DNA from: Parasphingorhabdus cellanae
GTDB taxonomy: Bacteria; Pseudomonadota; Alphaproteobacteria; Sphingomonadales; Sphingomonadaceae
Direction: 5' to 3'
Assembly: GCF_017498565.1 (NCBI RefSeq)
Contig: NZ_CP071794.1
Location: 1,364,001 to 1,428,000 of the forward strand
Length of the DNA: 64,000 nucleotides
The stretch's first letter is position 1; the number at the start of each line of letters is the position of its first letter. The notes beneath the pieces are model-generated. The model was not told where the DNA came from and did no database searches. It saw only the letters and a list, made by a program, of their open reading frames with translations. Shown here one piece after another: positions 2,216-46,807 of this stretch. A program made the position numbers and the translations under genes.

Positions 2216-3502
2216 TTAAATTGTCGCAACCTCCAGTTTTTCCATCCCGCCCATATAAGGCTTCAATGCTTCCGGAATTGTTACACTCCCGTCTTCCTGC
2301 TGATAATTTTCTAATACGGCCACCAGCGTGCGCCCGACCGCAAGGCCCGAACCGTTGAGCGTGTGGACAAATTGCGTGCCCTTGGTCTCGCCTTCGGGCC
2401 GGTAGCGCGCATTCATCCGCCGTGCCTGATATTCGCCGCAGGTCGAGACGCTGGAAATCTCGCGATAAGCGCCTTGGCCTGGCAACCAGACCTCCAGATC
2501 GATCGTCTTGCGCACCGTCGCGCCCAGATCACCGGCGCAGAGCATCAGGTTACGATAGGGCAGTTCCAACGCTTCGAGGATCGATTCTGCCGAGGCCAGC
2601 ATATGCTGAAACTCGGCCTCATCCTGATCCGGCTGGGCCACCGTGACCATTTCAACCTTTTCAAACTGATGCTGGCGAATATAGCCTTTGGTATCACGAC
2701 CAGCCGACCCTGCTTCACTGCGGAAACAGGGGGTCAGCGCGGTAATCCGTTGCGGAAGATGGGCGCCATCAAGAATTTGTTCCCGCACACTATTGGCCAG
2801 GCTGGTTTCTGATGTCGGGATCAGCCAGCGGCCATCGGTCGTCTGGAACAGGTCTTCGGCAAATTTGGGCAGCTGCCCGGTGCCGAATACCGCCTCTTCA
2901 CGCACCAGCAGCGGCGGCGCACATTCGGTATAGCCATTTTCCGTCGTCTGTTTGTCGAGCATATATTGCCCGATCGCGCGTTGCAGCCGCGCCATCTGAC
3001 CACGCAGGAAGGCAAAGCGCGCGCCGGACATGCGCGCTGCGGTTTCAAAATCCAGCCCCAGCGCGGGACCGATATCGCTGTGCTCGCGCGGCGTGAAATC
3101 AAAATCGCGCGGCGTGCCCCAGCGCTTGATCTCGACATTATCCTCTTCATCCGCACCATCAGGCGCTTCCGCGCTCGGCAAATTGGGCAAGGCCGCGACA
3201 AGATTTTGAAGCTTCTCCGCCGCTGCGCGCGCCTGGTCTTCCAACTCGGGCAGGCTCGCCTTCAATTCCGACACTTCGGCCATCAGCGCCTGCGCGGTTT
3301 CCTCGTCGCCCTGCCCCTTGGCCTTGCCAATCGCTTTGGATGCCTCGTTGCGCCGCGCCTGGCCTTCCTGAAGTCGGGTCGCGAGACTGCGGTTTTCCTC
3401 GTCGAGCGCCAAAATGGTCGCCGCCACTGGTTCCACACCGCGCCGCGCCAATGCGGCATCAAAATCGGCCGCGTTTTCTCTGATATATTTTAGATCATGC
3501 AT
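2216..3502 (-). CDS. serS: Serine-tRNA ligase
   Basis: This 428-residue class II aminoacyl-tRNA synthetase charges tRNA-Ser and tRNA-Sec. Residues about 30-105 form the characteristic long antiparallel coiled-coil tRNA-binding arm (Glu/Ala/Lys-rich heptads). The catalytic domain shows motif 2 ([26 protein letters not shown]) and motif 3 ([15 protein letters not shown]) near the C-terminus. Length is normal. It leads the serS-surE cluster and starts with [10 protein letters not shown], typical for the family. Confidence 0.97.
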
Positions 3503-3562
3503 GGGACAAGCCTATGCCGAGACACGGGCTTTGGTTCAAGTGCAGAGCACGAACCTCCCAAC

Positions 3563-3596
3563 AAAAAAAGCGGCCAGATTGCACAGGCCGCTTTTT
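3563..3596 (-). terminator. Rho-independent terminator after the Ser/Gly-rich gene
   Basis: The stem GCGGCC (3570-3575) / GGCCGC (3586-3591) with a 10-base loop is flanked by seven A on the left and five T on the right, so it can end transcription in either direction. It lies just downstream of the Ser/Gly-rich gene (stop at 3621) and upstream of serS, insulating the two minus-strand genes. Confidence 0.85.
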
Positions 3597-3620
3597 GATT
3601 TCTTCTACGTGGGTTGCCGT

Positions 3621-39015: not shown

Positions 39016-39090
39016 GGCCCCTTCGTCTAGCGGTTAGGACGCGGCCCTTTCACGGCTGAAACACGGGTTCGATTCCCGTAGGGGTCACCA
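39016..39090 (+). tRNA. tRNA-Glu (anticodon TTC), integration target
   Basis: GGCCCCT pairs with AGGGGTC for the acceptor stem; the anticodon stem-loop is CGGCC-CTTTCAC-GGCTG, giving anticodon TTC; the T arm is CACGGGTTCGATTCCCGT and CCA is encoded. The integrase gene ends 27 bp past its 3' end, so the left attachment site of an integrated element most likely lies here. Confidence 0.96.
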
Positions 39091-39116
39091 TTTTGATTTG
39101 TCATAATTTTTTCTCC

Positions 39117-40190
39117 TTACTTGCCATTTCGTCCCCCTTTTAAGGGTAGGACGTCCCCCCTTGTGACTCTGCTCGCCACACCTTCTGCGACCATGAGAAT
39201 ACGTTTCCGTTTGGTGTAATGCCGCACCGTCGGCGGCGTCATGCCACAGATGGAGCCGATCTGATTATCGCTAAGCCCTAATTCGGCAAGATAGCAGGCC
39301 GCATTTTTGCGAAGGCCGTGGAAACTGTATAGCTTCGGCTTACCATTACTCAAATATGTTGGTGAACCGATTTCAGCCATGAGCCTACGCATTCTTTCTT
39401 GAATCGCCTTCGGACTACTGAATGGGGATCCACTTCTGTCGTAGAGCACGGTAAGAGATCGTCTGGGAACTTTCTCTATTTCCGCAAGCCACAAAGGATG
39501 CATGGGAACGGCAACTCCGACGCCTTTGTCCTTTTTACCCACCACTTTTGCTGTCACAAATTGCATCATTTGACCATCATGCCAACTATGCTGCATTCGG
39601 ATGACGTCGCCTACTCTTGCGCCGCTGCAAAAACCGGTGATGATCGCTAGACGCATCATCGGGCTTGCGACATCCAAAGCTGCCCGCAATACTTCTGTCG
39701 GCCAAGGCTCATGCTCACCGGTATCTAGAGGTTTGATGCCAATCGCAGGATTGTCATCACGCCAAGAGTTCTCAACCGCATATTTCATCAATGACCGAAA
39801 CGTGCTCAGCCAGTTATTCGCTTTTCCTGGCTTATCGAGATAGCGGTCACGCATTTTTCGCACATGGGGATTCTTGCATCCACTGACGGTTCGATGACCG
39901 TCCTCACTCTCGATCATTGCCAAATAGCGTGCTTTATTACGTTTTGTTTTTGGTGATTTAATGAGCTGGTATTCGGAGCTCTTTCGATAATCGATGACCA
40001 ACGCCGCCATTGTATCCGCAGCGACGCGTCGCCTCTTGTTTTCTGGTGAAGATACTCTTTGATACTCAACGGCAAAATCTGGGTCATCCAGTTCCGGCAA
40101 TCGAATATAGGTGTCTCTACCCGCTACTTTTCGCCGAAAATAGATACGGCCTTGCTTTTGACAGATGTTTTTTAGCGAAGATCTGCCCAC
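39117..40190 (-). CDS. Tyrosine recombinase / integrase
   Basis: 357 residues. The N-terminal SAM-like core-binding domain (about 95-165: DGHRTVSGCKNPHVRKMRDRYLDKPGKANNWLSTFRSLMKYAV) is followed by the catalytic domain, with Arg in FCSGARVGDVIRMQ, YSFHGLRKNAACYL (HxxR) and the Tyr in TPPTVRHYTKRKR. It is placed immediately at tRNA-Glu and reads toward it, as usual for element integrases. Two small HTH proteins lie just upstream. Confidence 0.93.
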   Translation of the reverse strand: MGRSSLKNICQKQGRIYFRRKVAGRDTYIRLPELDDPDFAVEYQRVSSPENKRRRVAADTMAALVIDYRKSSEYQLIKSPKTKRNKARYLAMIESEDGHRTVSGCKNPHVRKMRDRYLDKPGKANNWLSTFRSLMKYAVENSWRDDNPAIGIKPLDTGEHEPWPTEVLRAALDVASPMMRLAIITGFCSGARVGDVIRMQHSWHDGQMMQFVTAKVVGKKDKGVGVAVPMHPLWLAEIEKVPRRSLTVLYDRSGSPFSSPKAIQERMRRLMAEIGSPTYLSNGKPKLYSFHGLRKNAACYLAELGLSDNQIGSICGMTPPTVRHYTKRKRILMVAEGVASRVTRGDVLPLKGGRNGK

Positions 40191-40417
40191 GTGCTGTCCT
40201 CACTTGACTGGAAATTTGTGTAGCCGAATTGAGCGGCGATATGCCTGTCCAATTGTATCCGTGACCAAAATTTGAGAGAGCCATCCTGTATCGGCTGAGG
40301 ATATAAACGATCAGCAACTCTCGTGCGAAAAGTAGACTTGCTGACGCTCATGTAAGCGGCTGCGCTATCTTCACTAAGTCTCGCTGGCCAGGTTGGTAAT
40401 TTGCGGAGATCTTGCAT
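40172..40417 (-). CDS. Small HTH protein, AlpA/excisionase-like
   Basis: 81 residues, overlapping the integrase start by 19 bp. RLSEDSAAAYMSVSKSTFRTRVADRLYPQP fits a helix-turn-helix of the AlpA/MerR-like excisionase type. The remaining part, FWSRIQLDRHIAAQFG, resembles the tail of such proteins. It probably helps integration or excision, or regulates the integrase. Confidence 0.75.
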   Translation of the reverse strand: MQDLRKLPTWPARLSEDSAAAYMSVSKSTFRTRVADRLYPQPIQDGSLKFWSRIQLDRHIAAQFGYTNFQSSEDSTWADLR

Positions 40418-40420
40418 GGC

Positions 40421-40615
40421 CTAGCTTGATTTCTTGACTGGTATGGGATCCACCATGTTCGCTGTAACGAACTCTTCCAGTGCTCCTGACGGAATGTAAA
40501 GATTGGCTCCGATCCTGAGGTGCCTTAGTTTCTTTTGAGCAATTAATGTCCGAATGCGCCTTTCAGGCCACCCGCAACGTTGAGCTAATGCTCTTGGGCT
40601 CTCGAATTGTTCCAT
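40421..40615 (-). CDS. Excisionase-like winged HTH protein
   Basis: 64 residues: SPRALAQRCGWPERRIRTLIAQKKLRHLRIGANLYIPSGALEEFV is a typical helix_turn_helix_17/Xis DNA-binding unit. It starts in a 108-bp region shared with the divergent XRE repressor and is 3 bp upstream of the next HTH gene. Probable recombination directionality factor of the element. Confidence 0.78.
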   Translation of the reverse strand: MEQFESPRALAQRCGWPERRIRTLIAQKKLRHLRIGANLYIPSGALEEFVTANMVDPIPVKKSS

Positions 40616-40723
40616 GTCTTATTCTTGGCTCCCATGCTAACTGCTGCTACATTTATCCAAGAATCACATCATTGGTACAAAATATGATACTTTGGACTAA
40701 ATTATGAAACCATACGAGAAGGC

Positions 40724-41119
40724 ATGATGTCAATAGGAAAAAGGATGGCCGAGGTTCGCGCGGCCGCTGGTCTCAATCAGATCGACTTTGCCGAGCAGCT
40801 ATCAGTACCCAAAAGTTCCTACAAAAATTACGAGCGCGGAGCCTTCGATCCCCCTCTCAGTCTGATCATGCAGATTTGCGAAACCTACGCGGTAGATGCG
40901 AACTGGATCCTTTTTGGCAAAAGCAAACCGAGCAACAAGGATCTCGACAAAATTTCCGACAGCATCGAACGCGCGTTTTCTTTTTTGTCTGAAGAGGGCT
41001 TGGAGTTGAATGCGAAAAATACGAACAAAGCGGTGGCGGTAATATTGAATCTTCAAGATGAATCAGGTTTGGACAAGAGTTCGGTTGATCCATTGTTGAA
41101 GAAGTTAGTGGCGGAGTAA
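40724..41119 (+). CDS. XRE-family repressor of the element
   Basis: 131 residues. An N-terminal Cro/CI-type HTH (GKRMAEVRAAAGLNQIDFAEQLSVPKSSYKNYERGAFDPPLSLIMQICETYAVDANWILFG) leads into a C-terminal helical part for oligomerisation. ATG codons at 40724 and 40727 both follow GAGAAGG; the second has better spacing. It is divergent from the excisionase-like genes, the classic lysogeny-switch layout. The gap holds near-repeats GGTACAAAATATGATAC that may be its operator. Confidence 0.87.
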   Translation: MMSIGKRMAEVRAAAGLNQIDFAEQLSVPKSSYKNYERGAFDPPLSLIMQICETYAVDANWILFGKSKPSNKDLDKISDSIERAFSFLSEEGLELNAKNTNKAVAVILNLQDESGLDKSSVDPLLKKLVAE

Positions 41120-41123
41120 AACG

Positions 41124-41531
41124 ATGAAATCACATGGAGAGCCCAGAGAAAACGAGGCTTTACGCGAAGCATTTAAGAATGAAAAACGCGAAGCCGAGAG
41201 CACTGATCGAGCTCAGCATTCGTTCTTTGAGACACTTAAGCCAGAGAATGCATATGTAGTTGTGATCCTAAAATACCTAGCCATTATCGTAATCGCGCTC
41301 CCTTTGGCTCTGATTATTTTCGTAAGTGAATATCAACCAGATTGGGGTTCCACCGCTATCATATTAGCATTGTTGATAGAAAGTTTGGCTATTGCGGCAA
41401 TGATCGCGGTCGAACGGATTGAGGGTCTAGTTGGTAAATGGAGATTAGTACTGCCCTGGGAGAGCGGATCAATCTCACATTTGCGAATTTCCGTTTTGCA
41501 TTTTTTTCCAGCTAAATCACAAAAACACTAA
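41124..41531 (+). CDS. Two-helix membrane protein of unknown function
   Basis: 135 residues. A charged, helical N-terminus (REAFKNEKREAESTDRAQHS) leads into two hydrophobic helices (about 50-70 and 80-98; YLAIIVIALPLALIIFV, IILALLIESLAIAAMIAV). It is 4 bp after the XRE gene and so in the same transcript. No family recognised. Codon use is AT-rich, consistent with accessory DNA. Confidence 0.65.
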   Translation: MKSHGEPRENEALREAFKNEKREAESTDRAQHSFFETLKPENAYVVVILKYLAIIVIALPLALIIFVSEYQPDWGSTAIILALLIESLAIAAMIAVERIEGLVGKWRLVLPWESGSISHLRISVLHFFPAKSQKH

Positions 41532-41664
41532 GGCGGTCTTCAATTAGGCGCCCAAAAATATAACGAACTGCTGAAATGACGCTTAGTGAGTTCACAGCGA
41601 AATGTTAAAATTCCGGTCTTAAGAGGCGGCCTCCTTCAGTATAAAGACGTCAATCGCGGGCGAT

Positions 41665-44286
41665 TCAAATAGCCTTCTGCCTAGTTTCGAGATCGTCTAT
41701 CCAATTTTCGAGTGCCTTAATCTCGTCCTCAATCTGCTGCGGTGTTGGAGCCTGTGGATTAAGTTCGTCCGAAGCCTGATGCAGGAGAACGGAGCAATGC
41801 CCGTAACACTCCTTCATTGTGATGGCATCTGCCAGCTCGATCGCAGATAATTTCTTGAATCCCTTAGTGTTCACCTGCGACTGAAATGTTCTCAACACGG
41901 GAGAAATCGCATCTTCGATTGCTTTTTCCCATATCTGGCGAACGCTGTTAATCAATCCCCGTGAGGTCATTAGCCAATCATCGCCATCTGGATCCTGGTC
42001 ATATTTCACTTTCGTATTCGCAAGATGCGCCCTTACTGTGCTTAGGCGCTTGCCAGTTGGCTTCGCACTGTCGGGTGCTTCGTTTCGGCAGTGACCCGGC
42101 TCTTTTCCGCGTTTTTGGATATGCCTGAAAACGATTTCGGATTTTTCGGCAGGATTATCCACATTTAAACACGCTCGACGGAGCAGAAAGAGAAATGCAA
42201 TATCGTGAGTAAACACGATCACTTGACGTTTTTTCCCTTCTTTCGCCAACCGTTCCGCGATTGCTTGTCTGTGCAAATGGTCCAACGAAGATACCGGATC
42301 GTCAAAGATGATCCCAGAGTCACTGTCGCTAGTTGCCAGTTCAGCCAAGAATCCTGCCAAAGCCACGCACCGATATTCTCCTTCACTGAGAATTTCACCG
42401 GCGTTCTGAGATCCGGCTTCCATTAACCCGATACGAAACCGCGAAACTCCAAGCTGCGACTTCGCCTGTTTCAGCTCTATTGCCAGTCCTGCGAGTTTGA
42501 AATCATCGATTTCCTGAGCAAAACGAGCGCGCAATCGTTCGGTAATGAGGGCTTTGGAAAGCTGAGTATTAAGCGCAGTGATCGCATTCGGACGTGTTGA
42601 TTTTACCGCCACCTCCAATTCAGCGATGGCCTTTCTGCGCCCAATTTCTGCAATTACATCGTCAAGAATTGTTGACAACCACTTGCGATCTTTGAGTTCG
42701 CAATATTGCGCCCGTTGGGCTTTTCTTTCCTCGCTATCTTCTTCAGCCAGAATAGCCGCTGCTCGTTTTTCAAGTTCTTCAATCGCATTCGTCAGTTCGG
42801 CTTCGGGCAACGGCGGAATGGCTATTCCACTATCTCCTCTCAGTCTCATCATATCGCGCAAACGCCATTTTGCTTTGGCTACGAACGTGCGGACAACGGC
42901 AGCGAGTGCATCAAGCTCTATCTCATCTGAAATCTGGCGAATGCGCTTCAGCAATTGAGATTGTGTCGGCGCGGTTCGTGCAAGCTCGCTGAGTGTGGTA
43001 TCGCGCATGTTACTCGCGTCACGTGCCTGCGTCTGTGTCTGATCCTGCACAAACACCTCAAACCGTTTTAGCCGTTCGGGCGCAGCGCCTTGAAGTTTCT
43101 GCTGACACAGTAAGCAGTGCGCGTCACCATCCACGACTGGAAATGGCCGTGCTTGATAGGCCTCCAGTTCAGAAAAGGCGCGTGCCGTCTCCCAAAGCGC
43201 CTTCCAAGATTCCGATCCAACGCCTTTAAGCGGCTCTCCATCAAACAATTCTGATGATGCCAATTTAGCAGCATCAGATTTTGCCTTCGCATTCGCTGTA
43301 AGAGAAGCCAAACCGCTTGCAGATTCGTCTGATACTGCATTGCTTAGGTTCCTCAGCTTTACGAGCAATTCTGCCAACCCAGCTTTGTATGAGCGAAGTC
43401 GCTTTGCGATTACGTCAGCACCTTGGGCAAAATCACCTTCAAGCGTCTTTAACTGCTTCTCTTCGCCGTCAGATAGCTTCGCCAAGGCAATGACTTCTTC
43501 TGGGTTGGTAGCGCCGGATAGTTTTGAGAGCAGTTTTCCAACTTGGCTACCGTCGGAGCAGGTCGGTGAGCTTATGGCTTGAGGGGTTTGATCTTTAAGA
43601 GATTGATGTTCGGCATCGAATCTTTCTTTCAACTCTCTGCTGGCGCTAACCAGTTCCTCGACCACCTTCATTGGTCGAGGTGTATAGGCCAAGTTATTTG
43701 TTTCCTCGACATGCACGTTGGCGGTTTTCGTATCAAAAACGCTAACTTCCGACAGCAGCGCGTCAGCGGCTACACCCACTTCCCATTTTACTTTCTGATT
43801 CTGCCCGCCTGCGACATATTCAATTTCGGCAGTTTGCTTACCTGAACCATCACTATAAATATTGTGAAGTAAGACTTCGGTTTTGCCCTTTGGCGTCCGT
43901 GCGCGACAGGCACGCTTCAAGATCCTCACATAGCCAGACTTGCCCGAACCGTTGTTTCCATAAACAACGCTTAGCCCGTTTGGGTTAAATGGCAATGTTT
44001 GGCCTTCGGCAAGAGCATTGATATTCTGCGCATCTTTAATCGATTTCAGAGTAACCGTTGGCACGCCGGCGCTGTGTCCACCGATATGTGTATCATCAAG
44101 CGGAATGCAGGGCTTTGTCTCATCCTTGCAAAGAGCAAGAAGCTCATCATGATCGCTTTTCGACAAATCGCCATCGACGATCAAGCGGCGCAAGCAATCG
44201 CGCTGCCAATTTGCTTTGTCCTTCGACCAATCCAGTATCGCTTGAAAAGCGTCTGATTCTGTATTTATTGTTATATTGTCTGACAT
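41665..44286 (-). CDS. Zinc-hook AAA ATPase, possible RloC/PrrC-like anticodon nuclease
   Basis: 873 residues. Order: N-terminal helical cap (WSKDKANWQRDCLRRLIVDG, 19-38); Walker A GNNGSGKS (110-117); long coiled coils broken by a zinc-hook CLLC (391-394); ABC-type signature LSEGEYR (633-639); Walker B IIFDDPVSSLD; H-loop Thr-His at 693-694. The C-terminal part has RQIWE (783-787, an RxxxE) and His at 830 and 836. A AAA_13-type ATPase with a CxxC hook and a C-terminal Arg-Glu-His set is the layout of RloC, which cuts tRNA anticodons on infection. The nuclease triad spacing is not that of PrrC, so the assignment is tentative. It is element-borne. Confidence 0.7.
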   Translation of the reverse strand: MSDNITINTESDAFQAILDWSKDKANWQRDCLRRLIVDGDLSKSDHDELLALCKDETKPCIPLDDTHIGGHSAGVPTVTLKSIKDAQNINALAEGQTLPFNPNGLSVVYGNNGSGKSGYVRILKRACRARTPKGKTEVLLHNIYSDGSGKQTAEIEYVAGGQNQKVKWEVGVAADALLSEVSVFDTKTANVHVEETNNLAYTPRPMKVVEELVSASRELKERFDAEHQSLKDQTPQAISSPTCSDGSQVGKLLSKLSGATNPEEVIALAKLSDGEEKQLKTLEGDFAQGADVIAKRLRSYKAGLAELLVKLRNLSNAVSDESASGLASLTANAKAKSDAAKLASSELFDGEPLKGVGSESWKALWETARAFSELEAYQARPFPVVDGDAHCLLCQQKLQGAAPERLKRFEVFVQDQTQTQARDASNMRDTTLSELARTAPTQSQLLKRIRQISDEIELDALAAVVRTFVAKAKWRLRDMMRLRGDSGIAIPPLPEAELTNAIEELEKRAAAILAEEDSEERKAQRAQYCELKDRKWLSTILDDVIAEIGRRKAIAELEVAVKSTRPNAITALNTQLSKALITERLRARFAQEIDDFKLAGLAIELKQAKSQLGVSRFRIGLMEAGSQNAGEILSEGEYRCVALAGFLAELATSDSDSGIIFDDPVSSLDHLHRQAIAERLAKEGKKRQVIVFTHDIAFLFLLRRACLNVDNPAEKSEIVFRHIQKRGKEPGHCRNEAPDSAKPTGKRLSTVRAHLANTKVKYDQDPDGDDWLMTSRGLINSVRQIWEKAIEDAISPVLRTFQSQVNTKGFKKLSAIELADAITMKECYGHCSVLLHQASDELNPQAPTPQQIEDEIKALENWIDDLETRQKAI

Positions 44287-45015
44287 ATGTTGGACAAGTT
44301 AGCATAACTTCCAATAATAAAACGAAAATATTTACACCACAACTAGGCAACCTTAGTCATACGCTGCTACTTGTTCAAAGTTGAAAGAAGATAAGCCGCT
44401 AAAGGTCCAAATTTAGCTCGTCAATTTCAATTTTTTGATTACCCGATAACCCTCCACCTATGGCCAGCCAATAAAGTCAAATTTGGAGTTTGTTTTGAAG
44501 ATATAGCTACCATAATTAGTGTCCGCCATCTCAAAACACTTTGCTGATATCATCAGCATGGCGGAGGATTTTTTGTTCCTGTTTCGCATACCGAAACCAT
44601 CAAGCATATCGACTCAATCCGCGTTTACCCGAATAAATAATCTCGCCGAATAAGGCATAATAGCACCCCCTCAATTCGCAATTATCCTCATTGCCTTCGC
44701 GTCGTGATTTCATCTCAGAAAAAACCAACATTTCGAACACTTAGAAAATCGGTTTCGCTCCCCTTGAACGCAAATTTTGTTGTCAGCATTGTCAGCCTAG
44801 GAATTCTGCGGCTAGAGGGGTGGTTGTCAGCAGGGCTGACAAATCTGCCAGCGATGCTGACAGACTAAACTACTGAAATACAAACAAAACCTGCCCAACT
44901 ATGGGCCCGTAGGGTGTGCCACTTTTAATAATTCCTGCTTACTGTCTCTGAATTGCCTGATTTTGACGTCTTAAATTAACTTTAAAACGGTGTGCGTTTG
45001 CCGCAACCTGGCCGC
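44287..45015. other. AT-rich intergenic region inside the element
   Basis: About 730 bp with no convincing gene. It holds the AAA ATPase promoter and a cluster of TTGTCAGC palindromes (separate entry). A 9-bp match to the tRNA-Glu 3' end, CCCGTAGGG, lies at 44906-44914. Otherwise I see only low-GC sequence with stop codons in all frames. Confidence 0.5.
44780..44863. repeat. Cluster of TTGTCAGC/GCTGACAA palindromes
   Basis: Within 84 bp there are two direct TTGTCAGC copies (44780, 44789), then a perfect palindrome TTGTCAGC-AGG-GCTGACAA (44824-44842), then CTGCCAGC-GAT-GCTGACAG (44845-44863) with one mismatch. Evenly styled octamers in both orientations suggest binding sites for an element protein (regulator, replication or transfer) rather than a terminator. 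Confidence 0.6.
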
Positions 45016-45468
45016 TTAAATTTTGGATCCAGCTGAGAAGCTGATATTGCAATTGAGATTGGCAGATAGAAACTGATGATAAGGGTCCTTGAGCTTTCGT
45101 CTTTTGACGCCCTGTTCTCGCAAAAATTTGTCAGCGCGTCCTCTGGCTTCCAATATATGCGCAAACGTCTCGAGCATTTTTATCATTTTACCCTGCCCTC
45201 GACCGGCAACGCAAAAATAAATACACCGCTGATAGTCGCACCAGTTGTCGGAAAGTATATTTGATAAAACGGTTTTCCCTTCATTCGGGCATAATATGAT
45301 TAACCGCGCAGCTTGGATTAGCTCTTGAACGGCAAAATAAGCGTCATCTAGGCCCATGCCGAGTGTGAGACTCGCCATTGCGCGTATCTCGTGATCTTGA
45401 TGCTCTCTGGCCGTATCCTGGAGGATTATATCCGGATCAACCGGCTCAGCAAATAAATTGCCTATCAT
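45016..45468 (-). CDS. Hypothetical protein
   Basis: 150 residues, unrecognised. Helical with basic C-terminus (GVKRRKLKDPYHQF) and two cysteine pairs. No signal peptide or membrane helix. It starts 4 bp after the preceding small membrane-protein gene, so the two form a unit. AT-rich codons fit the accessory region. Confidence 0.55.
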   Translation of the reverse strand: MIGNLFAEPVDPDIILQDTAREHQDHEIRAMASLTLGMGLDDAYFAVQELIQAARLIILCPNEGKTVLSNILSDNWCDYQRCIYFCVAGRGQGKMIKMLETFAHILEARGRADKFLREQGVKRRKLKDPYHQFLSANLNCNISFSAGSKI

Positions 45469-45472
45469 GATT

Positions 45473-45868
45473 TCACCACCTCTGCCCAGCTCTCGTATCC
45501 TGACCAGAATCGGTCATTGAGGCTGCCTGAAAACAGTCGACGCTTTCTCTGCGGGACATGAGTCGGCCCGTTCGCTCGCGTGAATAAAGCGCCCATCGCT
45601 CTCTCAGTGCCAGCTGGCGCTCAATACCGATAAGGTCGAGCTGGGTTTGGAGTAAGGTCTGTGAAGCTATTGTATCTGGCCTGATCAGCACTGCGAATAG
45701 GGTCAGAGAAAACAGCATTCCCACAAGGCCAAGTGGGCCAATATCAAAACTAGCAATCGCAACCAACGACATGGCCTGGACGCTGAAAACAGCTATCACA
45801 ATCTGCACGTCATAAACATCAATCAGTGCCACGATCTTGCGGCATAATGTTGCAATCCAGCAGAGCAT
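45473..45868 (-). CDS. Hypothetical membrane protein
   Basis: 131 residues with two hydrophobic segments (about 18-40 and 45-65: YDVQIVIAVFSVQAMSLVAIASF, LGLVGMLFSLTLFAVLI). A charged, helical tail follows with RERWALYSRERTGRLMSRRES. It is just upstream of the hypothetical gene at 45016 with 4 bp between. Function is unknown. Confidence 0.55.
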   Translation of the reverse strand: MLCWIATLCRKIVALIDVYDVQIVIAVFSVQAMSLVAIASFDIGPLGLVGMLFSLTLFAVLIRPDTIASQTLLQTQLDLIGIERQLALRERWALYSRERTGRLMSRRESVDCFQAASMTDSGQDTRAGQRW

Positions 45869-45935
45869 GTTGGGGCCCTTCTTTCTTTCAATCCATAAAC
45901 CTAAACAAAAAACGGGTGAACAGAAACTAGCTTAG

Positions 45936-45984
45936 CCCCAGGTAACAGTCACCTTCATCTATCAAAGGTGACTGTTACCTGGGG
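45936..45984. repeat. Perfect 20-bp inverted repeat
   Basis: CCCCAGGTAACAGTCACCTT (45936-45955) is followed by a 9-base loop and its exact reverse complement (45965-45984). It lies between the small membrane-protein gene and the lipoprotein gene. No T-tract follows on either strand. The arm is itself part-palindromic (GGTAACAGTCACC). It could be a terminator-like hairpin or a recombination or protein-binding site. Confidence 0.75.
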
Positions 45985-46004
45985 CAGATGGCGAAACACG
46001 CCAT

Positions 46005-46478
46005 CTAGTTCTGCACATATCCCACAATCGCCAGCTTACCGTCCAGCTTATCAAAGCGCCAAGCACCGCTAATTTTATCATCTTTGCCATCAAGCCCCTT
46101 AATTAATACTTCCATCTCACAATTTTGACCAGGCAAGTTGGCGGCAGGAACGCACCGTATGTTTTCAACATCTTCAACAGCTGCTGTGCTCAACCAGCGC
46201 GAAAATCTTGCCGCATCAGCAGACTCGTTAGCGGTTTCGTCGGTAGATGCTCCATCGTCTTGTCTGCCAAGACTGGCTGAAACGCTGCGGCGCAATTCCG
46301 CGCCTCGACGAAAGCTCTCTGCATGACTATCGAAAAACTCGGCTTTCTCAGCCCACTTCGCCTGCGCGGTTGGCCAGAAATCCTCGATCGCTGATTTATA
46401 CTCTACCTTACTCGGAGCGGATGGTGCACAACCAATTGAAAGTATTAGGGCAGGAAATAAGTAAAGGGTTTTGATCAT
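46005..46478 (-). CDS. Small lipoprotein with a structured, SD-blocking leader
   Basis: 157 residues from the ATG at 46478, preceded by GGAGG at 46483-46487 (spacing 4). A lipoprotein signal (LYLFPALILSIGCAPS) precedes a soluble domain (VEYKSAIEDFWPTAQAKWAEKAEFFDSH...CEMEVLIKGLDGKDDKISGAWRFDKLDGKLAIVGYVQN) of unknown family. An in-frame ATG further upstream (46544) lies inside the hairpin region and is not used here. The leader appears built to control translation (next entry). Confidence 0.7.
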   Translation of the reverse strand: MIKTLYLFPALILSIGCAPSAPSKVEYKSAIEDFWPTAQAKWAEKAEFFDSHAESFRRGAELRRSVSASLGRQDDGASTDETANESADAARFSRWLSTAAVEDVENIRCVPAANLPGQNCEMEVLIKGLDGKDDKISGAWRFDKLDGKLAIVGYVQN

Positions 46479-46500
46479 AAAGCCTCCGAAGGTATAAATT

Positions 46501-46640
46501 GGAGGCTGGCCCGTAACCGGGCGTTTGTAACTCCACGTTGCCACGGAGCGCCGCCACCTTTAGGCGGACCCTGGACATACGTGACGGCCACCCGGTCAGA
46601 ATATCTGACCGGCGACAACATTGGAGGTTACAAAGCCTCA
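46501..46640 (-). ncRNA. Structured 5' leader, C4-antisense-like or riboswitch-like, of the lipoprotein gene
   Basis: On the minus strand (mRNA sense), TTTGTAAC (46634-46627 side) pairs with GTTACAAA (46531-46524 side), closing a domain with several hairpins: CCGGTCAGA-ATA-TCTGACCGG (46612-46592), CCGCC/GGCGG (46567-46551) and CTCC/GGAG (46548-46531). A GCCCG-GTTA-CGGGC hairpin follows (46522-46509). The last motif, GCCTCC (46506-46501), complements the ribosome binding site GGAGGC (46487-46482). An upstream GAGGC (46639-46635) can also pair with GCCTCC, giving two alternative folds. It resembles phage C4 antisense RNA (inference; no covariance test possible here). Confidence 0.4.
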
Positions 46641-46807
46641 CAGCCGGGATTGACCGAACTGCAAAACCTACAATGGCAAATATGGAGTCCGGGAGCAATG
46701 GAGAAATCATGTTAGCTACCCCCGTAAACTGGTGCTAAAAAATTGAGGGAATTCTATTCAACGGTTCGAAGGGCTTTTTTACTCCCGCCAATGTCTCCTA
46801 TGGGCTC

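Follow-up and report, generated by a model that had tools for sequence, protein, structure and literature searches.

A leader RNA on the plan of C4 and sRNA-Xcc1 suggests that some mobile genes carry a private RNA lock

In 5' leaders that sequester the Shine-Dalgarno (SD) sequence and in RNA thermometers, an anti-SD hairpin lies over the SD, and C4 antisense RNA is matured by RNase P. The leader RNA described here is encoded on the minus strand of a 64,000-nucleotide stretch of Parasphingorhabdus cellanae (contig NZ_CP071794.1, positions 1,364,001 to 1,428,000; hereafter the window), ahead of a lipoprotein-like gene at 46478-46005; a first-pass annotation of 46479-46640 had proposed it as a C4-like or new riboregulator. 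C4 and c4-a1b1 are treated in passages of PMC2864571. The IsrK-orf45-anrP leader of Gifsy-1 in Salmonella adopts either a silent long-range fold or an active fold with a local 5' hairpin, and its 5' RNA supplied in trans lifts translation 114- to 171-fold in wild-type fusions (passages of PMC4825925). sRNA-Xcc1 was discovered by cloning and Northern blot (PMC2996969). It precedes symE in the integron cassette that is most widespread in Xanthomonas, for which the relevant passage of PMC12444791 suggests a divergent regulatory mechanism that it leaves unspecified. Among the papers searched, both C4 antisense RNA and sRNA-Xcc1 are named in one alone, as annotations, in a passage of PMC12189769.

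The window leader is a member of a widespread family that has no Rfam match at threshold. At the gathering threshold, Rfam models matched only two tRNAs in the whole window and nothing at the leader, and scanning of 46380-46800 up to E 10 gave nothing credible there. No publication title among the matches listed in the literature searched concerned this leader; of two motif surveys, the extracts of PMC11109978 held no sphingomonad term, and those of PMC8632094 named Sphingomonas once, for an odc1 upstream open reading frame (uORF) element whose sequence was not compared with the leader. On balance, we think it rather probable that the leader is the 5' RNA of a mobile cargo gene, that it represents an alphaproteobacterial family on the C4/sRNA-Xcc1 plan, and that it serves as a private on/off lock.

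Distribution and alternative folds of the leader family

All elements named in the first-pass annotation are present in the sequence, including a closing stem, hairpins (one of them a perfect 9-bp helix), GCCCG/CGGGC, GCCTCC, GGAGGC and GAGGC, and the leader does precede a lipoprotein-like open reading frame (ORF) of 157 amino acids. The TTTGTAAC/GTTACAAA closing pair lies at 46524-46531/46627-46634, the arms of the GCCCG/CGGGC hairpin at 46509-46513/46518-46522, and the upstream minus-strand copy of GAGGC at 46635-46639. The RNA is longer than first stated, with an extra hairpin at its start reaching about 46661, and a direct repeat missed by the first-pass annotation, AAAGCCTC, is found at 46479-46486 and 46632-46639, because the upstream GAGGCUUU resembles the SD region. 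The 162-nt leader folds at -76.8 kcal/mol, compared to -55.2 +/- 4.3 in 200 dinucleotide shuffles (z -5.0, none of the 200 equal), and covariation of its helices also argues for structure beyond chance. The plus strand folds well too (z -4.5), as expected because the stretch is palindrome-rich; a function of that strand was rejected, the gene logic being missing there. Also rejected was a leader ORF: a 100-amino-acid frame (46710-46408) spans the leader, and such stop-free frames are common by chance (55 of 83 leaders, compared to 45.8 in shuffles).

By blastn, 22 of 196 relatives have the leader, giving 28 matches in total and no more than three per genome. Two matches (L021 and L023) were judged to be chance, three (L003, L004 and L028) were near-duplicates, and three (L019, L020 and L022) were held out; the 20 remaining copies, including the window's own, were aligned. 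The genes behind these 20 leaders differ, whereas the leader architecture is kept. A new covariance model, R1, which had been suggested at the outset, was built from the 20 sequences (148 positions, structure P1-P5); it recovers the three held-out loci at E 3.2e-13 or better and misses both chance loci. Of 397 genomes sampled from the bacterial family, 158, representing 59 of 96 genera, carry the RNA according to R1 at E 0.01; for the class, the count at E 0.001 is 31 of 385. A single genome has as many as six matches, and the window's own genome is counted in both samples. An exact core pattern, used without model scoring, occurred in 23 stretches of named genomes, whose carriers include Parasphingorhabdus, Sphingorhabdus, Pontixanthobacter, Novosphingobium, Sphingomonas, Pacificimonas, a Rhodobacteraceae metagenome-assembled genome and Magnetospirillum.

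At the DNA level the leader is single-copy in the window's genome. R1 detected a second, diverged copy, L063, at C1:1313360-1313530 (about 8861-9031 of L159; 33.5 bits, E 7e-5), which precedes a DUF5818 gene and a recombinase-like ORF and keeps a CACCA tail; a partial third copy at E 0.76 was left uncounted. In one further locus (L082) the RNA occurs twice in tandem, at 1501-1669 and 1913-2059 on the minus strand, the second being weak (26.2 bits), and another (L065, 2128-2256, minus strand) scored 37.5 of 65.3 bits (E 4e-4) for Wolbachia sRNA 46, which is below threshold. Among viral contigs, an exact core pattern yielded no relative and the lipoprotein pattern 16 matches, none of which was confirmed. 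Phage records gave a single blastn match, MT839424.1 (L154, labelled Bacteriophage sp.), with the RNA at 3462-3609 and an R1 score of 69.7 bits; it is not counted as phage evidence because its gene content (ParA) resembles that of a small plasmid.

Two mutually exclusive folds are conserved in this family, as shown by covariation. In the first, the two halves of the RNA, 5' and 3', pair with each other. The 5' strand of P1, UUUGUAAC (46627-46634), and that of P2, UGUUGUC (46614-46620), pair with an antisense segment at 46524-46542, composed of the P2 3' strand (46536-46542) and the P1 3' strand (46524-46531), and enclose P3, the perfect 9-bp hairpin (46592-46600/46604-46612), as well as P4 with the small P5 (46550-46588), whose internal loop is AUGUCCAG/UAAAG. 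In the second fold, the 5' half forms the b1 hairpin, GAGG-cuuuguaa-CCUC (46624-46639), whose 5' arm carries the SD-like GAGGC and whose loop is most of the P1 5' strand, while the 3' half folds into a C4-like domain closed by a' (CCGGGUG, 46589-46595, overlapped by the P3 3' arm) and a (CGCCCGG, 46517-46523), with P4, the P6 hairpin CUCCGUGGCAACGUGGAG (46531-46548) and a free antisense strand. Strand a has an alternative in a local hairpin, GCCCGguuaCGGGC, at 46509-46522. P1/P2 cannot coexist with b1 and P6, nor P3 with a'/a. A further hairpin, P0 (46640-46661), with which the transcript presumably begins, is the counterpart of the first c4-a1b1/isrK hairpin; its inner four pairs were formed in 18-20 of the 20 aligned copies and its outer four in 10-19.

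Both folds are supported by an alignment of 83 copies. Over P1, P2 and P3, 95.7% of cells were paired and 495 were changed on both sides, compared to 138 in shuffled controls, and the covariation score was 0.66, compared to at most 0.084 when the strands were slid; these counts lean towards the model because R1 was built with P1-P5. A MAFFT alignment of the 20 copies agrees with this result, though the helices were read from the same 20 sequences. Individually, P1 was paired in 93.2% of cells, with one column changed on both sides in 56 of 83 sequences and the outermost pair present in only 38, and P2 was paired in 96.7%, with both-side changes in all seven pairs. The alternative helices b1, a'/a and P6 lie outside the model's structure and were nevertheless paired in 94.3% of cells, with 133 both-side changes compared to 37.5 in shuffles and a score of 0.285, compared to 0.171 shuffled and at most 0.093 when slid. 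Here b1 (99.7% paired) covaries from GAGG/CCUC to GGGG/CCCC, a'/a was also 99.7% paired, and P6 (84.5%) showed both-side changes in six of seven pairs, its innermost pair being open in 34 of 83 sequences. The first-pass annotation had read the leader as a switch, and had named a lack of covariation among homologues as part of the evidence that would speak against it; the helices do covary, and the switch logic gains support from the two exclusive folds.

The letters that form P1/P2 are nearly private to each locus. The 14 positions gave 76 distinct readings in 83 leaders, seven of which occurred twice each. A leader's own 5' and 3' halves pair at 98% of positions, compared to 62% when the halves come from other loci, and pairing of all letters was found in 69 of 83 own combinations, compared to 27 of 6,806 foreign ones. 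Copies within one genome carried different P1/P2 letters in all four genomes checked.

The Shine-Dalgarno hairpin and the proposed lock

Between the RNA core and the gene, the window leader has an anti-SD, GCCUCC (GCCTCC in DNA; 46501-46506), followed by the SD, GGAGGC (46482-46487), both on the minus strand. The first-pass annotation had given the anti-SD two possible partners, this SD and the upstream GAGGC. We defined a near clade of 38 loci (R1 score of at least 128.7 bits) and a divergent set of 23 loci. In the near clade, 35 of 38 leaders have an SD-bearing start by our rule, a crude one which for at least three sRNA-Xcc1 loci (L087, L095 and L096) picks a later start than that seen by eye next to the target. 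In 31 of these 35 leaders, the stretch that separates RNA and SD held an exact anti-SD of at least 5 nt, compared to 4.7 expected from mononucleotide shuffling of the spacer, and in 5 of 18 divergent members, compared to 1.8 expected. SD and anti-SD change together, for example as CGGAGC, TTGGAGCG and ATCGGGA. It is thus shown statistically that near-clade leaders hold the SD in a hairpin formed by a dedicated anti-SD. The second partner is possible: the pairing of GCCUC with the upstream GAGGC, a decoy, was formed in 18-20 of 20 copies at five positions.

For the window RNA, the fold with P1/P2 and the SD hairpin was computed at -83.7 kcal/mol, and the unconstrained minimum of -86.9 kcal/mol is of the same fold type. 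Since this fold was computed to be the most stable, the resting transcript should be translationally silent, like structure A of IsrK-orf45-anrP. The transcript might be opened in either of two ways. The SD-like GAGGC, which P1/P2 would leave free, could capture the anti-SD; or P1/P2 could be disturbed by the RNA's own 5' or 3' part acting in trans, by processing, or in the course of transcription. We infer that the window RNA is opened in an IsrK-like way. The antisense output of the C4 plan would then be replaced by a hairpin in cis, giving a private lock on one mobile gene.

Several results weigh against this reading. Folded alone, the window RNA is 14 kcal/mol less stable in the C4-like state (-69.9 kcal/mol), which retains the SD hairpin, than in the state with P1/P2; when the anti-SD is held by the 5' GAGGC, as in the decoy state (-78.4 kcal/mol), the loss in stability is 5.3 kcal/mol. 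The decoy GAGGC/GCCUC is nearly invariant and has no support from covariation, which cannot probe a pairing whose letters hardly vary. Among 40 further family loci (L114-L153, 82-130 bits), 19 had an SD-bearing start and only 7 of these an anti-SD, compared to 2.1 expected; the SD hairpin is therefore a trait of the window's near clade, rather than of the whole family. Moreover, R1 matched none of three C4 loci and none of seven sRNA-Xcc1 loci tried, and a second model, R2, built from the 3' domain of 18 divergent members, matched none of the three C4 loci. As a separate observation, 21 of the 40 lower-scoring loci lacked an SD-bearing start codon within 130 nt by our rule.

Alternative readings, cargo genes and genomic setting

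Alternatively, RNase P, for instance, might release the 3' domain from the transcript, and this domain would then act in trans as an antisense RNA, as in C4, repressing its own or other mRNAs. Such a role would be in keeping with the conserved C4-like fold and with the pairing of sRNA-Xcc1 loci with their own ribosome-binding sites (RBS; see below). It would also suit two divergent members with Rha-like genes, L022 and L081, in which pairing with the downstream region of the same locus, SD included, was computed at -32.3 and -32.7 kcal/mol, respectively, and a CACC[AC]-like tail, which still follows the closing stem in 8 of 23 divergent members. This tail is present, however, in just 1 of 38 near-clade members, and the a2/b2-type RBS target was not seen: tested against its own RBS, the antisense strand showed no preference among near-clade loci (p 0.27, n=35; a top-quarter rank in 9 of 38) or among those of the wider family (p 0.72, n=19), the same test being borderline in divergent members (p 0.024, n=18). 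We regard a trans-acting role as unlikely for the window RNA. Because the own-RBS test was negative in the near clade, a built-in SD hairpin seems to have taken the place of the antisense output there.

A ligand- or temperature-sensing riboswitch that shares the C4 topology by chance, with the AUGUCCAG/UAAAG internal loop as sensor, is less probable still. P4 was paired in 19-20 of 20 copies and its internal-loop columns were invariant or nearly so, a conservation for which the pairing logic does not account. The nearly locus-private letters of P1/P2, on the other hand, would be unneeded in a ligand switch, and the cargo genes have no evident common pathway. We scanned 86 of 91 cargo ORFs of at least 50 amino acids: the 86 proteins matched 16 Pfam families, the commonest being SHOCT, in four, and the matches include two each of DUF4268, GGDEF and DUF805 and two Rha-like ones below the cut-off. 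Also matched were 44 PHROG families; among the 25 listed, 18 are undescribed, and an anti-repressor family has two matches. The lipoprotein-like protein of the window (MIKTLYLFPALILSIGCAPS...), encoded at 46005-46478, had no Pfam or PHROG match; of 32 genomes from the genus, 4 (the window's own among them) carry its gene.

The setting of these leaders is in some cases mobile. Five plasmid records, from Sphingomonas, Qipengyuania and Polymorphobacter, matched the leader, and in the two plasmids examined, replication and relaxase genes are located no more than several kb from the RNA. The window's cassette occupies the far end of an island (39016-46707) behind a tRNA-Glu gene. This island contains an integrase-like gene at 39117-40190 (below the Pfam cut-off), helix-turn-helix genes and an 873-amino-acid AAA_13/SMC-like ATPase at 41665-44286, which is possibly related to defence. 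Homology with three relatives ends at 46707 in each and runs jointly through leader and gene; a repeat of the tRNA-Glu 3' end was sought within the window and none was found at three mismatches. Such plasmid and island copies would also fit a structure that acts as DNA, as a recombination site or the end of the mobile element that carries the cassette, a reading we consider very improbable, as the SD hairpin and a start codon 34-45 nt past the core (29 of 35 near-clade loci) fit a role as RNA and the homology is continuous through leader and gene. A recombination site of the attC type, judged by eye, was likewise rejected.

A consensus scan gave no promoter at the leader; a weak promoter-like site may be present on the minus strand, with TTGCTC at 46698-46693 and CATTGT at 46675-46670 separated by 17 nt. 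Over 102 leaders, best promoter scores averaged 7.18, compared to 6.53 in shuffles, and the best site ended 5-9 nt ahead of the model start in 73. Downstream, a perfect 21-bp inverted repeat with a 9-nt loop and no T run (45935-45985) lies between the two cassette genes and is possibly a terminator. The second gene (45473-45868, minus strand) encodes a small membrane-protein-like product with no Pfam match, and a similar ORF follows the lipoprotein gene in one relative (L157).

Comparison with C4, sRNA-Xcc1 and IsrK

The window RNA is C4-like in plan, but not a member of C4. Its 3' domain has the C4 order of parts, a closing stem around two hairpins followed by a free antisense strand, which here form one of two exclusive folds that covary in the 83 sequences. 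The overall order shared with C4 and c4-a1b1 is that of a1/b1 hairpins, the closing stem with its two hairpins and antisense strand, and then the controlled gene. An upstream region complementary to the antisense strand is also present, the leader's own 5' half ranking in the top quarter at 38 of 38 near-clade loci. In the Rfam scan proposed by the first-pass annotation, neither C4 (RF01695, up to E 10) nor c4-a1b1 (RF03163) matched the window, and two of six homologues scanned gave matches below the gathering scores, L016 to c4-a1b1 (30.4 of 46.7 bits, E 3e-4), positioned as expected and spanning P0, and L022, the best member for C4, at the matching part (24.9 of 45 bits, E 0.64). What ties the family to C4 is thus its architecture and these two weak matches. 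The suspected resemblance therefore stands for the plan and the covarying C4-like fold, and falls for membership, given the missing RBS preference and the rare CCA-like tail. Unlike in C4, the cargo of the window is not an antirepressor, as far as Pfam and PHROG matches go; Rha-like genes were found only at L022 and L081, with scores below the Pfam cut-off (25.5 and 25.0 of 29.9 bits).

The nearest Rfam family appears to be sRNA-Xcc1 (RF02221), rather than C4. RF02221 had no match in the window; of 20 divergent loci scanned, 10 matched it below threshold, all at the 3' domain and on the right strand, one with E 0.007 and the others with 0.11 to 8.6, and the best score was that of L079 (37.2 of 53 bits, the gathering score). 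Conversely, R2, which matches 23 of 23 other family loci and, weakly (E 0.2), one of the two chance loci, matched 20 of 30 sRNA-Xcc1 loci (L084-L113, all above the RF02221 cut-off) at the right place, with E 2e-6 to 0.5 and 10 below 0.01, values that are rough owing to a short calibration. This link rests on consistent placement and modest E-values. Common to both are the 3' domain, with closing stem, two hairpins and free antisense strand, and a mobile setting (for sRNA-Xcc1, a passage of PMC12444791). After exclusion of L102, L104 and L106, because contig ends shift the domain, the sRNA-Xcc1 antisense strand was likewise complementary to its own upstream half, which ranked in the top quarter in 24 of 27 loci. 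Three further loci without an SD-bearing start were excluded from the RBS test, in which the antisense strand paired with the RBS of the next gene at a mean of -19.2 kcal/mol, compared to -14.6 over all pairs (none of 20,000 permutations as low), the own RBS being in the top quarter in 18 of 24 loci. A count of covered SDs from this test, 24 of 24, lacked a control and was not relied on. The sRNA-Xcc1 loci therefore show a C4-type anatomy, with an upstream partner and a target over the next gene's RBS. What is missing there is the anti-SD hairpin (2 of 24, compared to 1.9 expected).

With IsrK-orf45-anrP the window RNA shares exclusive folds in which a 5' element is either paired over a long range or forms its own hairpin (for IsrK, passages of PMC4825925). 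The isrK model (RF01394) had no match in the window and one weak match in the 20 divergent loci (19.1 bits, E 9.1), and, in contrast to IsrK-orf45-anrP, no leader ORF was demonstrated, stop-free frames being about as frequent as in shuffles. Compared to SD-sequestering leaders and RNA thermometers, the anti-SD hairpin is here joined to a 150-nt two-state RNA whose pairing letters are specific to the locus.

These comparisons suggest that some mobile genes are equipped with a private RNA lock. C4-type regulation has been described in phage immunity, and the same plan is found here in two-fifths of the sampled genomes of one bacterial family, before diverse cargo, in some cases on plasmids and islands; this would suggest how acquired genes stay silent until needed and why copies in the same genome bear different keys. 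Whether C4, IsrK, sRNA-Xcc1 and the alphaproteobacterial family form one superfamily of private-key RNA locks on mobile cargo genes is, in our judgement, evenly balanced. In such a superfamily, each unit would join a promoter of its own to a 5' key and a C4-like 3' lock, and its output would be antisense capture of the RBS in C4 and sRNA-Xcc1 and an anti-SD hairpin in the near clade. If this is true, sRNA-Xcc1, described as a small RNA acting in trans that may regulate symE, would be a C4-type regulator of its own cassette gene, and its position upstream of symE, for which a divergent action was left unspecified in the passage on it in PMC12444791, would have a testable mechanism.
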